Assembly: GCA_019187105.1 (NCBI GenBank) | Contig: JABAQM010000001.1 | Span: 1,178,001 to 1,242,000, forward strand | DNA length: 64,000 bases | DNA from: Fimbriimonadaceae bacterium | Lineage (GTDB): Bacteria > Armatimonadota > Fimbriimonadia > Fimbriimonadales > Fimbriimonadaceae | Reading direction: 5' to 3' | In this document: one piece after another, positions 8,292 through 17,459 of the stretch | How the letters are laid out: each line of letters opens with the position of its first letter | Numbering within the stretch: position 1 is the stretch's first letter | The notes under the pieces: generated by a model | What the model was told of the DNA's origin: nothing | What the model saw: only the letters and a program-made list of their open reading frames with translations | Databases searched by the model: none | Program-made: the position numbers and the translations under genes

Positions 8292-8309
8292 GGCCCCAGA
8301 CCAATCAAA

Positions 8310-8347
8310 AGCGGGGACCGATCGAGATCGGTCCCCGCTCCAATTTT
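8310..8347. terminator. Bidirectional intrinsic terminator between the M1 peptidase and RRM genes
   Basis: A perfect 14-bp inverted repeat (8310-8323 with 8326-8339, core gcggggaccgatc) is preceded by aatcaaaa and followed by aattttt, so it can end transcription from both convergent genes. Confidence 0.88.
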
Positions 8348-14058: not shown

Positions 14059-14772
14059 ATGAGGACAGCCCTGGTTTTGTCATGTGGCTTGATGACCGCC
14101 GTTTGCCACGCTGAGGTCGTGTGGTCGAATGTGAACGACATCCCGAAGGACCTGATGAGCACCGGCGATGGCTGGACGGCGAGCCGCGCCAACGACGACG
14201 ACTTCACGTCCTATCGCTGCGCCGCCGACGACTTCATTCTTACCGCGCGGACCCGCCTGACGAGTCTCACCTACTACTCCATACCGATCTCGAATCCGGA
14301 CATTCTCGGCGGCGATTGGTATCTGTTCGGAGGAGAGAATGCGGGCGGCCCCCCGGGCGAGGTTTTCGCAGGCGCCTTCAGCCAGAAGCTGACCCAAACC
14401 GACACGGGTTGGTTCAACTCGGCATTCGGCGAGAATGTTTGGGCGAACACGCTCTCGCTCGACATGACGCTCGACCCTGGCCACTACTTCCTGGGCTTCC
14501 GCAGCCTCCAGACCTTTAAGAACGGAGGCGGAAAGAACGGAATCCTCACCACCCGATGGGCCAACGGCACCGCGCGGGCGCACTGGAACTTCGACATCAT
14601 GGAGGACGGTTCCGCCTTCGGCGGCTGGGTGACGATGGACGTCTTCAACGGCGTGAAGGATCAGGAGTGGGCTTTCCAGCTTGAGGGAGACATCGTGCCG
14701 GAGCCGGCGACGATCATGGTGCTGAGCCCATTGCTTCTGGCTCTCGCCCGACGGAGACGCCCAGCAAGCTAG
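14059..14772 (+). CDS. PEP-CTERM sorted extracellular protein
   Basis: 237 residues: signal peptide MRTALVLSCGLMTAVCHA, a body starting EVVWSNVNDIP, and the C-terminal signal VPEPATIMVLSPLLLALARRR. The body, with ADDFILTARTRLTSLTYYS and a repeated Trp/Gly pattern, resembles the beta-sandwich surface proteins common in Planctomycetota and Armatimonadota; no enzyme motif is visible. It should be exported and anchored or released by exosortase. Its -10 box sits immediately upstream, so the mRNA is probably leaderless. Its stop shares CTAG with the convergent VOC gene. Confidence 0.88.
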   Translation: MRTALVLSCGLMTAVCHAEVVWSNVNDIPKDLMSTGDGWTASRANDDDFTSYRCAADDFILTARTRLTSLTYYSIPISNPDILGGDWYLFGGENAGGPPGEVFAGAFSQKLTQTDTGWFNSAFGENVWANTLSLDMTLDPGHYFLGFRSLQTFKNGGGKNGILTTRWANGTARAHWNFDIMEDGSAFGGWVTMDVFNGVKDQEWAFQLEGDIVPEPATIMVLSPLLLALARRRRPAS

Positions 14773-15242
14773 GGGGAGAGCTCTCCGAGAAGCCCGTTCA
14801 GGTCTAGGGGCTTCGTGAACATCGCGATCCGGCCACCGGACCGCGGCCATTGGTCGCGCGGCCGGTCCCAATACAGCTCGAGACCGTTGCGATCGGGGTC
14901 GTCCAGATACAGCGCCTCGCTCACGCCGTGGTCGGCGGCTCCAGTCAGGTCGACTCCTGCATCGATCAGGCGCTGGTAGGCCGCCGCCAGATCTCGCCGG
15001 GTCGGATACAGGATGGCGACATGAAACAGACCGGTCGTGCCTGGCGCAGGCGGCGGACCGTTACGGCTCTGCCATACGTTTAGCCCGATATGGTGGTGGT
15101 AGTCGCCGTAGGAAAGGAACGCCGCATCTTCGCCATACATCTGCTGCAGCTCAAGTCCGAGCACGTCGCGGTAGAAGGCCATCGATCGCTGCAGGTCGGA
15201 TACCTTGAGGTGGACGTGACCGATAACGGGATGCGAGTCCAT
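14769..15242 (-). CDS. VOC superfamily (glyoxalase/extradiol dioxygenase-like) protein
   Basis: 157 residues with one full vicinal-oxygen-chelate fold: VGHVHLKVSDLQRSMAFYRDVLG, the middle segment GLFHVAILYPTRRDL, and GLELYWDRP. The likely metal ligands (His in HVHL, His in GLFHVAI, Glu in GLELYWD) are all present, as in CatE/catechol 2,3-dioxygenase-like members. It resembles the first half of two-domain dioxygenases, so the substrate cannot be assigned. A -10 box 6 nt upstream of the ATG suggests a leaderless transcript. Confidence 0.88.
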   Translation of the reverse strand: MDSHPVIGHVHLKVSDLQRSMAFYRDVLGLELQQMYGEDAAFLSYGDYHHHIGLNVWQSRNGPPPAPGTTGLFHVAILYPTRRDLAAAYQRLIDAGVDLTGAADHGVSEALYLDDPDRNGLELYWDRPRDQWPRSGGRIAMFTKPLDLNGLLGELSP

Positions 15243-15266: not shown

Positions 15267-15293
15267 GGGAGTGCGCGAGCTTGCTCGCGCTTT
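15267..15293 (-). repeat. REP element 1 (inverted copy) at the 3' end of the RAYT gene
   Basis: Contains gcgcgagcttgctcgcgc (15273-15290): 8-bp arms around 2 nt. It is the reverse complement of the two copies upstream of the transposase, matching over 27 bp. It abuts and slightly overlaps the transposase stop codon. Confidence 0.92.
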
Positions 15294-15822
15294 AGAAGTC
15301 GTCGTAGACACTCACTCGATCCGTCTTAAACGACATCACGCTTTCGTAGAACGGCCTGGCGGAACGCAAGGCGAACCACTGGGCGCTGCACCAAGGATAC
15401 AGCTGAGCATCCTCTACCAAACCGTGTCTGACCGCGTTATTGTGGACGTAGGCAAGTCGAGCAAGATAGGATCGCTCGAAGATGATCCTTGTATCCCAGC
15501 ATCGGTACCAAACCATCCTTCCCGGCGTTCCGTCCAGTTTGTTGAGCGCAATGGCCGAGCGACCGTGAATCGCCCTGGTTAGCCTCTGGAGTCCCAGCCC
15601 CGTATCCGGTGAAAGTCCAACAAAGTGGTAGTGGTTCGGAAAGACTGCCCAAGCTTGAACATCCCACCCTGCCTTATCAAGCTCCTCCAGAAGAATGTCG
15701 TGCAGCATCTCCAATCGCTGTTCCCCTTTGAAAAGTGGAACCTTCTGATAAGTCGCAGCCGTGAGAACGTAAGTCCCCGGATGATCGACGACATGAGACG
15801 GGCTGTGGGGCCATCGTGTCAT
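15292..15822 (-). CDS. REP-associated tyrosine transposase (RAYT, TnpA-REP family)
   Basis: 176 residues of the IS200/IS605 Y1 transposase superfamily. The metal-binding HUH-type motif is seen in VFPNHYHFVGL and the likely catalytic tyrosine in YVHNNAVRHGL, with ERSYLARLAYV just before it. RAYTs are domesticated single-copy nucleases that cut and possibly spread REP palindromes. Here one inverted and two direct REP copies flank the gene, the classical REPtron layout. I chose the ATG at 15822, which gives MTRWPHSPSHVV and has TAAAGT 7 nt upstream. The frame looks intact. Confidence 0.93.
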   Translation of the reverse strand: MTRWPHSPSHVVDHPGTYVLTAATYQKVPLFKGEQRLEMLHDILLEELDKAGWDVQAWAVFPNHYHFVGLSPDTGLGLQRLTRAIHGRSAIALNKLDGTPGRMVWYRCWDTRIIFERSYLARLAYVHNNAVRHGLVEDAQLYPWCSAQWFALRSARPFYESVMSFKTDRVSVYDDF

Positions 15823-15829
15823 GAGGACA

Positions 15830-15835
15830 ACTTTA
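15830..15835 (-). promoter_or_regulatory. -10 box TAAAGT for the leaderless RAYT gene
   Basis: TAAAGT is 7 nt before the ATG at 15822, with no Shine-Dalgarno. Confidence 0.5.
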
Positions 15836-15876
15836 CTCGTGGTGACACAAAGTGTGAGTGACACCCGCACCGCAGA

Positions 15877-15908
15877 AAAGCGCGAGCAAGCTCGCGCACT
15901 CCTAAGAA
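15877..15908 (+). repeat. REP element 2
   Basis: A 32-bp unit with palindrome gcgcgagcaagctcgcgc (15880-15897) followed by actcctaagaa. It differs from REP 3 at one base. Confidence 0.93.
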
Positions 15909-15914
15909 AGCGTT

Positions 15915-15946
15915 AAAGCGCGAGCAAGCTCGCGCACTCCCAAGAA
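15915..15946 (+). repeat. REP element 3
   Basis: A direct copy of REP 2 after a 6-bp spacer; the palindrome is at 15918-15935 and is followed by actcccaagaa. Confidence 0.93.
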
Positions 15947-15962
15947 CGACTACCCACGACGG

Positions 15963-15968
15963 TAGAAT
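15963..15968 (+). promoter_or_regulatory. -10 box TAGAAT for the leaderless M32 carboxypeptidase gene
   Basis: TAGAAT is 6 nt before the ATG at 15975. It lies only 16 bp after REP 3, so the REP pair occupies the -35 region. Confidence 0.6.
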
Positions 15969-15974
15969 CCCGCC

Positions 15975-17459
15975 ATGGAAGTGCTTTCGCAGTTGAAGGC
16001 GCGGATGCATGATATCGACGCCCTTCATGCCGCCTGCGCGCTGATGGATTGGGACCAGCAAACGTATATGCCTCGCGGCGGCGCCGAGGCGAGAGGAGAG
16101 CAGACCGGCATCCTGGCCCGGATGGCGCACGAGATGCTCGTCGCCAACGAAACCGCCGACATTTTGGGAGGCATCAACGGTGGACTCGATCCCGAGTCGG
16201 ACGATGCCGCGCTGGTCCGGGTCGTCAAGCGTCAATACGACCTCGCCACCAAGATCCCCTCATCCCTCGTGGAAGAGAAGACCAAACTCTCGGTGATCGC
16301 GCATGAGAAGTGGGTCGAGGCACGGCAGAAGAACGACTTCGCCGGCTTCCAATCGACTTTGGAACGGATGTTCGAGATCGCTCGCCAAGAGGCGGAATAC
16401 CTCGGCTACACCGACCACATTTACGACGCGCTGCTCGACCAGTACGAAGAAGGCGCAACCGCTGCCGACTGCCGAGCGATGTTCGACGCGCTAAAGCCGC
16501 AGGTCGACCTGGTACACGAAATCCAAAAGGCCCCGACCATCGACGATTCCAAGCTCTACGGCACGTGGGACCATTCCAAGCAGGGCGCTTTTACCGAGAT
16601 GCTGGTGAAGGAGATCGGATTCGACATGGAGCGCGGTCGCCAAGACACCGCCCCGCACCCGTTCTGCACGAACTTCAGCGTCAACGACGTCCGCCTCACG
16701 ACGCGCTACAAGGACTACATCGGCTCCGCGATCTTCGGCTCGCTGCACGAAGCCGGCCACGGCATGTACGAACAAGGATCCCCGGCCCGGTGGGATCGAT
16801 CGCCGCTCGCGGGCGGAGTCTCGCTCGGAATCCACGAGAGCCAGAGCCGGCTCTGGGAAAACATCGTCGGCCGCAGTAAGCCGTTTTGGAACCGGTTCTT
16901 GCCCAAGCTCCAAGCGACTTTCCCTGACCTGAGTGGCATCTCCGTGGACGACTGGTACCGCATGATCAACAGGGTCCAGCCCTCGTTCATTCGTGTCGAA
17001 GCCGACGAGCTGACCTACAACATGCATATCATGGTGCGGTTCGAGGTGGAATGCGACATTCTCGAAGGCACGCTGTCCGTCAAGGACCTGCCCGAGGTCT
17101 GGAACGACAAGTACGAGCGGTACCTTGGCATCCGCCCGAGCACCGACAGCGAAGGATGCCTGCAGGACGTTCACTGGTCGGTTGGATCGATCGGCTATTT
17201 CCCGACCTATTCCATGGGCAACCTTTTGAGCTATCAGATCTGGAACTGCCTTCGTCGCGATCTCGGCGACACCGACAAGTTGATTGAAAGCGGCGACTTT
17301 GAGTCGATCCTCGGATGGCTCAAGCTTCAGATTTATTCAAAGGGCAAGAAGTACCGGCCCAAGGACCTGGTCGAGCGAGTAACGGGCAAGCCGATGGGCG
17401 CCGAAGACTATGTCGACGGGCTCTCGGCCAAGTATCGCGACATCTACGGTCTGAGCTGA
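15975..17459 (+). CDS. Carboxypeptidase Taq (M32 family metallocarboxypeptidase)
   Basis: 494 residues, the normal M32 length. The zinc site HEAGH is at residues 258-262 in FGSLHEAGHGMYEQG. Other family blocks follow, such as SLGIHESQSRLWENIVGRS and the YPTYSMGNL-type segment near the C-terminus (IGYFPTYSMGNLLSYQ). M32 enzymes remove C-terminal residues, broadly except proline, in the cytoplasm. The ATG is directly preceded by a -10 box and no ribosome site. The next gene starts 7 bp downstream and is likely co-transcribed. Confidence 0.95.
   Translation: MEVLSQLKARMHDIDALHAACALMDWDQQTYMPRGGAEARGEQTGILARMAHEMLVANETADILGGINGGLDPESDDAALVRVVKRQYDLATKIPSSLVEEKTKLSVIAHEKWVEARQKNDFAGFQSTLERMFEIARQEAEYLGYTDHIYDALLDQYEEGATAADCRAMFDALKPQVDLVHEIQKAPTIDDSKLYGTWDHSKQGAFTEMLVKEIGFDMERGRQDTAPHPFCTNFSVNDVRLTTRYKDYIGSAIFGSLHEAGHGMYEQGSPARWDRSPLAGGVSLGIHESQSRLWENIVGRSKPFWNRFLPKLQATFPDLSGISVDDWYRMINRVQPSFIRVEADELTYNMHIMVRFEVECDILEGTLSVKDLPEVWNDKYERYLGIRPSTDSEGCLQDVHWSVGSIGYFPTYSMGNLLSYQIWNCLRRDLGDTDKLIESGDFESILGWLKLQIYSKGKKYRPKDLVERVTGKPMGAEDYVDGLSAKYRDIYGLS

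Follow-up and report, generated by a model that had tools for sequence, protein, structure and literature searches.

The locus at positions 15267-15946 of the window, by which we mean the whole stretch of 64,000 nucleotides of Fimbriimonadaceae DNA that was analysed, raises the question of whether a single RAYT gene and the three short palindromes around it constitute a REP-RAYT system. We consider it very probable that the locus is a complete minimal REPtron, i.e., a HuH single-strand endonuclease bounded by inward-facing REP hairpins that would serve as its recognition and cutting sites, belonging to a RAYT clade with a GGAG(T) foot. The evidence comprises the gene, the geometry of its flanks and the conservation of that geometry, a constant foot with covarying stems, the co-occurrence of REPs with RAYTs and the REPIN-like dispersal of the same 26-mer in other genomes. 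The name "REP" is justified by structure and kinship, whereas dispersal and the foot speak against it.

The RAYT (TnpA-REP; HuH, Y1-type) gene occupies 15292-15822 on the reverse strand when read from its likely ATG, with an alternative GTG at 15870; since homologues begin near W20, the ATG at 15822 is probably the start. NF047646 (REP_Tyr_transpos) matched the protein at 3.7e-21 and 75.5 bits, 4.5 bits short of its cutoff of 80, and PF01797 (Y1_Tnp) gave 20.5 bits, slightly below the cutoff of 23, while a profile in which the window protein was aligned with 17 relatives matched E. coli TnpAREP (4ER8) at 4.5e-13. The HuH motif NHYH (N79-H80-Y81-H82, numbered from the GTG) is invariant in 18 aligned proteins, as is the catalytic tyrosine Y141 (18/18; same numbering), which aligns with E. 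coli Y115. The window protein hence has the combination that defines a RAYT, namely HuH and a single catalytic tyrosine in a Y1 transposase domain. Its tyrosine motif is YVHNNA, in which A replaces the P of the YVHxNP found in the majority of relatives; it is of the class 2 type (Y---NP) and not of the class 1 type (Y---Q), as the two are defined in excerpts of PMC6006769. The W motif is WY. A structure predicted from the single RAYT sequence had a mean pLDDT of 34 and was discarded, and a plasmid search with the protein returned 0 matches. The gene has a GC content of 0.546 (0.598 for the window) and a GC3 of 0.62, compared with 0.70 +/- 0.08 over 37 ORFs, six of which lie lower; as this is within one standard deviation, a foreign base composition was rejected, and composition, being uninformative, lends no support to recent transfer. 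The immediate neighbours, both outside the element, are a VOC/glyoxalase-family gene downstream (14769-15242, reverse strand; PF00903, 1.4e-17) and a divergent M32 carboxypeptidase Taq gene (15975-17459, forward strand; PF02074, 1.7e-170).

Three identical copies of the 26-mer GGAGTGCGCGAGCTTGCTCGCGCTTT, the complete REP unit, flank this gene. Each is built of a GGAGT foot, an 8-bp hairpin stem with a TT loop (GCGCGAGC-TT-GCTCGCGC) and a TTT tail. All three stems are perfect and the GGAG stands one base (T) before the stem in 3/3 copies; a canonical GT[AG]G foot 0-2 nt from the stem is found in none. The downstream REP (15268-15293, forward strand; 44 bits, E 1.9e-10 in the window) is inverted with respect to RAYT, and the proximal (15877-15902) and distal (15915-15940) upstream REPs, both on the reverse strand and at 44 bits each, are direct, the proximal one having a T-tail and being terminator-like on the RAYT strand. 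The palindrome proper, GCGCGAGCAAGCTCGCGC, lies at 15273-15290 (inverted), 15880-15897 and 15918-15935; with up to three mismatches it gave six strand-wise matches in the window, against a mean of 0.34 and a maximum of 3 in shuffles. The upstream pair forms a tandem duplication (15877-15946; period 38 bp) of a 32-bp unit, TTCTTN plus REP on the RAYT strand, with a gap of 6 bp and one mismatch, which falls outside the 26-mer. The original prediction of one inverted REP at the stop codon and two direct REPs upstream is confirmed in coordinates and identity, as is its count of only three copies in the window (three exact palindromes and 26-mers). Its description of the direct copies as 6 bp apart and one base different is true of the 32-bp units, and the inverted copy is where it was placed, except that it overlaps the stop codon rather than abutting it, the TTT tail sharing two of the three stop-codon bases (15292-15294). 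A weak match of the REP covariance model at 8308-8341 in the window is an ordinary terminator-like hairpin.

The REP pair had further been thought to cover the -35 region of the M32 gene and, by its insertion, to have altered expression of that gene. The formal -35 slot (15940-15945) reads CCAAGA and shares 2/6 bases with TTGACA; it overlaps the REP 26-mer by one base, its remainder lying in the tail of the 32-bp unit, and no sigma-70-like promoter was found. The likely M32 promoter is instead the putative extended -10 element GGTAGAAT (15961-15968, forward strand), which is clear of the REPs. M32 was found in 55/61 genomes, and in a comparison of 30 loci (the window and L049-L077) the motif GGTANNNT stood at the M32 start in 21/30, as against 1.4% of random windows; in the window it is intact, downstream of the REP. 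At the 29 other loci, the 400 bases upstream of M32 are free of GGAG-footed hairpins, and neither a RAYT nor the VOC gene lies within 1.5 kb of M32. The claim of altered expression is therefore unsupported, since GGTANNNT is intact here and is common to the M32 genes of most relatives examined, which have no REPs at this place, and damage to the promoter by the REPs was rejected on the same grounds together with the lack of a sigma-70-like promoter; some REP effect on M32 expression is possible. The position of GGTANNNT near the M32 start codon in these 21 loci suggests leaderless or extended -10 promoters, and the motif may aid gene-start calling in this family.

A dispersed repeat would be expected to recur across the host genome, which is 3.307 Mb long and 99.55% complete. 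The genome-wide search for the palindrome that the original prediction had proposed was run, and it found three exact palindromes, all in the window and thus no intact copy outside it; a fourth palindrome at 2,947,943 has one mismatch and lacks the foot. A covariance model of 32 REPs, applied to the genome at E <= 0.1, returned the same three copies only, with the proviso that the scoring covered 150 out of 2545 first-look candidates, so that weak, decayed copies could escape. The loose pattern GGAGTGCN{12,18}GCTTT matched the three window copies and one further site, 419036-419061 (GGAGTGC ... GCTTT), whose arms pair at 5/8 positions; since a backward control of this foot-and-tail pattern gives 4 matches in the genome, that site is either a decayed REP or a product of chance. 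By the palindrome and covariance-model searches, then, the REP is non-dispersed in this genome: the many intergenic copies that the term implies were sought in the host and not found, the 3 intact copies all lying beside the RAYT. The predicted RAYT with flanking inverted REPs accordingly stands, and the dispersed repeat does not, as far as the host is concerned.

Elsewhere in the same genome, a second RAYT (G000:C1:713257, locus L013) is flanked by a palindrome of its own (GCAGGCGTCNCGCCTGC); the foot at this RAYT is of the GGAGC type. This palindrome has seven exact genome matches, two adjoining the L013 RAYT and the others at 476378, 476423, 496921, 1287293 and 2573461, and the REPs of this RAYT form a small dispersed family; the host thus does not forbid some REP spread. 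The contig end (G000:C1:3300956-3304852; L014 and L015) holds a pair of RAYT-like genes that share one translated frame, lie 1797 bp apart and are flanked on either side by CCCGGGTTCGCGCAGCTAACCCGGG palindromes; the pair is either the product of tandem amplification or an artefact of the assembly.

With less certainty, we infer that the window cassette is probably a recent arrival or weakly active, given the three identical copies, at most one doubtful decayed copy elsewhere and the upstream tandem duplication as the only multiplication. The same lack of dispersal would also follow if the cassette were a relic whose RAYT is dead and whose REPs stayed confined as activity ceased shortly after it arrived, and relatives with a broken gene do exist (L017, L019 and L022, by stops or a split frame). 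This is unlikely, since the RAYT frame in the window is intact with all invariant residues kept, the stems of the three identical REPs are perfect, and the single difference between the 32-bp tandem units spares the 26-mer.

The reading of the locus as a minimal REPtron is also supported by its relatives. A search of 201 genomes with the window RAYT gave matches in 97 at E <= 0.001, many of them distant, and 35 closer-family loci, that of the window among them, were compared (27 that are the best locus of their genome, seven additional copies and L017). GGAG-footed hairpins, one or more, are present at 33/35 loci, the exceptions being L025 and L082; an upstream direct and a downstream inverted hairpin occur together at 25/35, with 10/35 lacking the pair under a strict criterion, and 80 of the 92 GGAG-footed hairpins at the 35 loci are oriented inwards. 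A palindrome occurring nowhere else in the genome and absent near the RAYT genes of relatives had been named as evidence against the prediction; the first is the case in the host, and the second is not. The closest relative found, L017, belongs to a MAG of Fimbriimonas, a genus of Armatimonadota. Its RAYT is 64% identical and split over two frames, and it has the same palindromes around it but other genes as neighbours; it was the sole locus to come from the genome-contig search and reads as the same stretch as G082:C62. The split frame of this locus reflects either a decayed copy or a sequencing error.

When all 256 tetranucleotides were counted one base before the stem, GGAG was the most frequent, at 92 occurrences against a median of 4. 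GGAGT is present in 85/92 hairpins; 39 different stems occur among these 85, of which 67 have a perfect stem and 18 a stem with one mismatch. Covariation was assessed in 32 distinct REPs with an 8-bp stem and a 2-nt loop. GGAGT and the two basal pairs are constant among them and 97.7% of cells are paired, although the invariance of the foot and the degree of pairing arise partly by construction, as the set was selected for GGAGT and at least 7/8 pairs. The tetranucleotide count and the two-sided pair changes are less affected by this selection; the latter amount to 70 cells vs 16.6 in shuffles (0/500 shuffles as high). The covariation score is 0.713 vs 0.161 in shuffles, and sliding the partners abolishes the signal. 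In these 32 REPs, the stem is therefore kept palindromic by compensatory change, as is required of a REP. Among the flanks, those of L024, L037, L043 and L044 are composite arrays, in which a GGAGT hairpin is followed by a different hairpin nearby, some of these being repeated several times. The window RAYT has 15 matches in G076 and 16 in G082 (L026, L030, L079-L084, L089, L101 and L112-L114), and the REP pattern matches listed for G076 carry many different stems; the two genomes are likely hot spots of REP diversification.

REPs and RAYTs also occur together across genomes. At least three REPs were found by the covariance model in 26/27 RAYT genomes (match at E < 1e-37) vs 0/13 genomes without a RAYT match, which had 0-2 REP matches; the latter were hand-picked from the same family, genomes with weaker matches stood outside the comparison, the model was built from some of the tested genomes and 150 candidates were scored per genome. 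The exception, G016, has a RAYT and one weak REP match, and the lowest counts among the other 26 are those of the host (3) and G085 (3). Many relatives do show dispersed REPs, with up to 140 matches per genome. The identical 26-mer is present in 6/291 genomes of the phylum, with 3 copies in the host, 2 in G061, 1 in G069, 1 in G082, 11 in G013 and 8 in G054, the last two being of two genera other than that of the host and showing it dispersed. Of its 26 loci, 20 were inspected for a partner foot. An inverted foot lies 67-74 bases further on at 8/11 loci of G013 and at a distance of 46-76 in 4/5 inspected loci of G054, and none was found at four loci of G061, G069 and G082. The inverted 26-mer pairs of G013 and G054 can be described as REPIN-like arrangements without a RAYT.

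These observations bear on whether the hairpins are instead ordinary terminators or attenuators of RAYT and its neighbours and no substrates of a nuclease. Hairpins with a T-tail are a common form, TTT follows 51/85 of the GGAGT hairpins, and the proximal upstream REP has this appearance on the RAYT strand. A terminator, however, has no need of an invariant 5' GGAGT foot, would not track one transposase gene across genomes, and would not be scattered as a single 26-mer in inverted pairs; moreover, the upstream copies would stop RAYT transcription ahead of the gene. We regard this explanation as highly improbable, and a secondary attenuator role of the REPs as possible. The idea that the locus is a TIRtron or an IS200/IS605-type insertion sequence, mobile as a unit and with the palindromes as its ends, has in its favour that the catalytic domain PF01797 is common to RAYT and IS200 TnpA and that the gene lies between inverted ends, but is very improbable, as the window RAYT is single-copy in the host (other genome matches are 27% and 30% identical) where near-identical multiple copies would be expected, its tyrosine motif is class 2 (YVHNN) without Y---Q, its ends are of the REP type with a foot, and RAYT-free inverted 26-mer pairs exist in relatives.

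Within the REPtron reading, the foot sets this family apart. The window RAYT falls within a 33-member clade (support 100/98) of a tree inferred from 71 RAYT cores (101 columns, midpoint root, 18 open forks; L017 and L022 left out). Of the feet in this clade, 29 are GGAG and 4 unassigned, so that all assigned feet are GGAG. The neighbouring branch (7 rows, 93/86) has GTAG at L046, L047 and L085, GGAG at L099 and three unassigned feet, and GGAG-type feet are also found in a distant group (L013, L089, L101 and L113). The foot label changes three times on the tree, or at least twice when starred branches only are considered. These labels were set partly by eye: L047 and L085 are taken as GTAG though the script left their feet unscored, L113 is GGAG from one hairpin and L034 from two imperfect hairpins, and L045 and L114 are unlabelled despite 4 and 3 GGAG hairpins by script (residue 104 being F and R, respectively). 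On the sequences compared, the GGAG(T)-footed RAYT clade is one of the host family and of other families of the phylum.

Comparison with known systems draws on excerpts of the published texts. REPs are described there with a GT[AG]G foot (PMC6006769; likewise PMC3733652, PMC8266576, PMC2817692 and PMC3686654), subclass 2.6 and class 3 having other, atypical structures (PMC6006769). Subclass 2.8 (Quentin et al., 2018; PMC6006769), with 8 cyanobacterial members and related sequences in other phyla, resembles the window RAYT in NHYH, in a W motif W[YH] that WY fits, in the short protein and in the hairpin-flanked gene. By the motifs of Table 1 in that paper, its YIHYNP is fitted only in part by YVHNNA, and its long, canonical GT[AG]G REPs differ from the GGAG(T) feet that accompany 33 sampled RAYTs of another phylum here. 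E. coli TnpAREP (4ER8, REPtron Ec) shares with the window protein a homologous core, HuH and a single tyrosine, and its W94, acidic residue 100 and Y115 have counterparts; in place of its guide contacts Q95, H101 and R104, on the other hand, the window protein carries Y, T and I, and the E. coli REP has a required bulge and a GTAG foot in place of a perfect stem and GGAG. Perfect stems are also found in the Group 3 REPtrons of Stenotrophomonas and Marinomonas, and Marinomonas Mb has a foot offset from the stem, as in the window (both from excerpts of PMC8266576). The Marinomonas REPs lie mostly near their RAYT, which the same text interprets as recent arrival; these systems differ from the window in their GTAG foot and gammaproteobacterial hosts and from its confinement, complete bar one doubtful copy. 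REPs of Pseudomonas and Xanthomonas are inverted around RAYT and form dispersed inverted pairs (PMC2817692, PMC3686654 and the REPIN paper PMC3116915, in part), and several have the letters GGAG directly after a GTGG or GTAG foot (TGTGGGAGCGGGC, GTAGGAGCGCACC; excerpts of PMC2817692 and PMC3686654). REPs of the window family lack such a GT[AG] ahead of GGAG, with 0/85 containing GTAGGAG or GTGGGAG and 11/85 a GTGG that overlaps GGAG. Titles and abstracts of the literature searched held no GGAG-footed REPs or Armatimonadetes RAYTs, figures and supplements (e.g., Table S1 of Quentin et al.) being outside this scope; GGAGT, GGAGC and ACTCC are absent from the text of PMC3733652, and GGAG was sought at word starts only in the available portions of PMC6006769, PMC8266576, PMC2817692 and PMC3686654. 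Measured against these partial texts, the departure from published REP descriptions is the foot, GGAG and not GT[AG]G, while the REPtron kind itself is known.

By homology, and with the TnpAREP biochemistry in excerpts of PMC8266576 as a basis, RAYT would bind the folded single strand of a REP through foot, structure and loop. The foot would act as the guide, and GGAG keeps its last two bases, AG, which are thought to choose CT. Y141 would cut, forming a 5'-phosphotyrosine, the ends would be joined, and REP pairs would be moved or copied by RAYT. CT, the dinucleotide at which TnpAREP is known to cut, was considered as a cut site within 6 nt upstream of the feet and rejected, as it is not enriched there (42/85 observed vs 47.8 expected). 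A 3' cut at the stem edge, between C and TTT, is a guess from the last base of the stem, which is C in the 26-mer form, and from the first base 3' of it, which is T in 66/85 GGAGT hairpins.

The guide contacts were compared at the positions of the published list (W94, Q95, E100, H101 and R104, E. coli numbering), L022 being excluded from the count. Arginine is found at both 101 and 104 in 5/5 GTAG users, among them L046, L047 and L085 of the neighbouring branch. GGAG users have R101 in 6/35 and R104 in 5/35 (L013, L089, L099, L101 and L113), the latter all outside the main clade, in which no member readable at position 104 has Arg104. A strict correlation of foot with residue 104 was thus rejected, and a GGAG foot does not presuppose that Arg104 is lost; within the main clade, the residue pattern fits a specificity change, although it is no proof of one. 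We therefore offer only tentatively, as plausible yet short of probable, the proposal that GGAG replaced GTAG as the guide tetranucleotide of this whole REPtron clade, the guide-contact segment changing to match, that stems drift so long as they stay paired, and that the window cassette represents the simplest, undispersed state. The combination of GGAG-type feet with Arg104 in L099 of the neighbouring branch and in RAYTs of the distant group counts against such a switch.

In the portions of the literature consulted here, the foot is treated as a nearly fixed GT[AG]G that steers cleavage. The present family touches on how a RAYT chooses its REP and how REP families diversify, as it provides material for comparison: a clade of good support in which a different foot is constant, stems that covary by the dozen, and RAYTs of the adjoining branch in which GTAG is still used. 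A host whose cassette and REPs are unspread may further serve as a baseline for the birth of REPs and, if the guide switch is true, the clade would constitute a natural series from which the guide code of RAYTs could be read.
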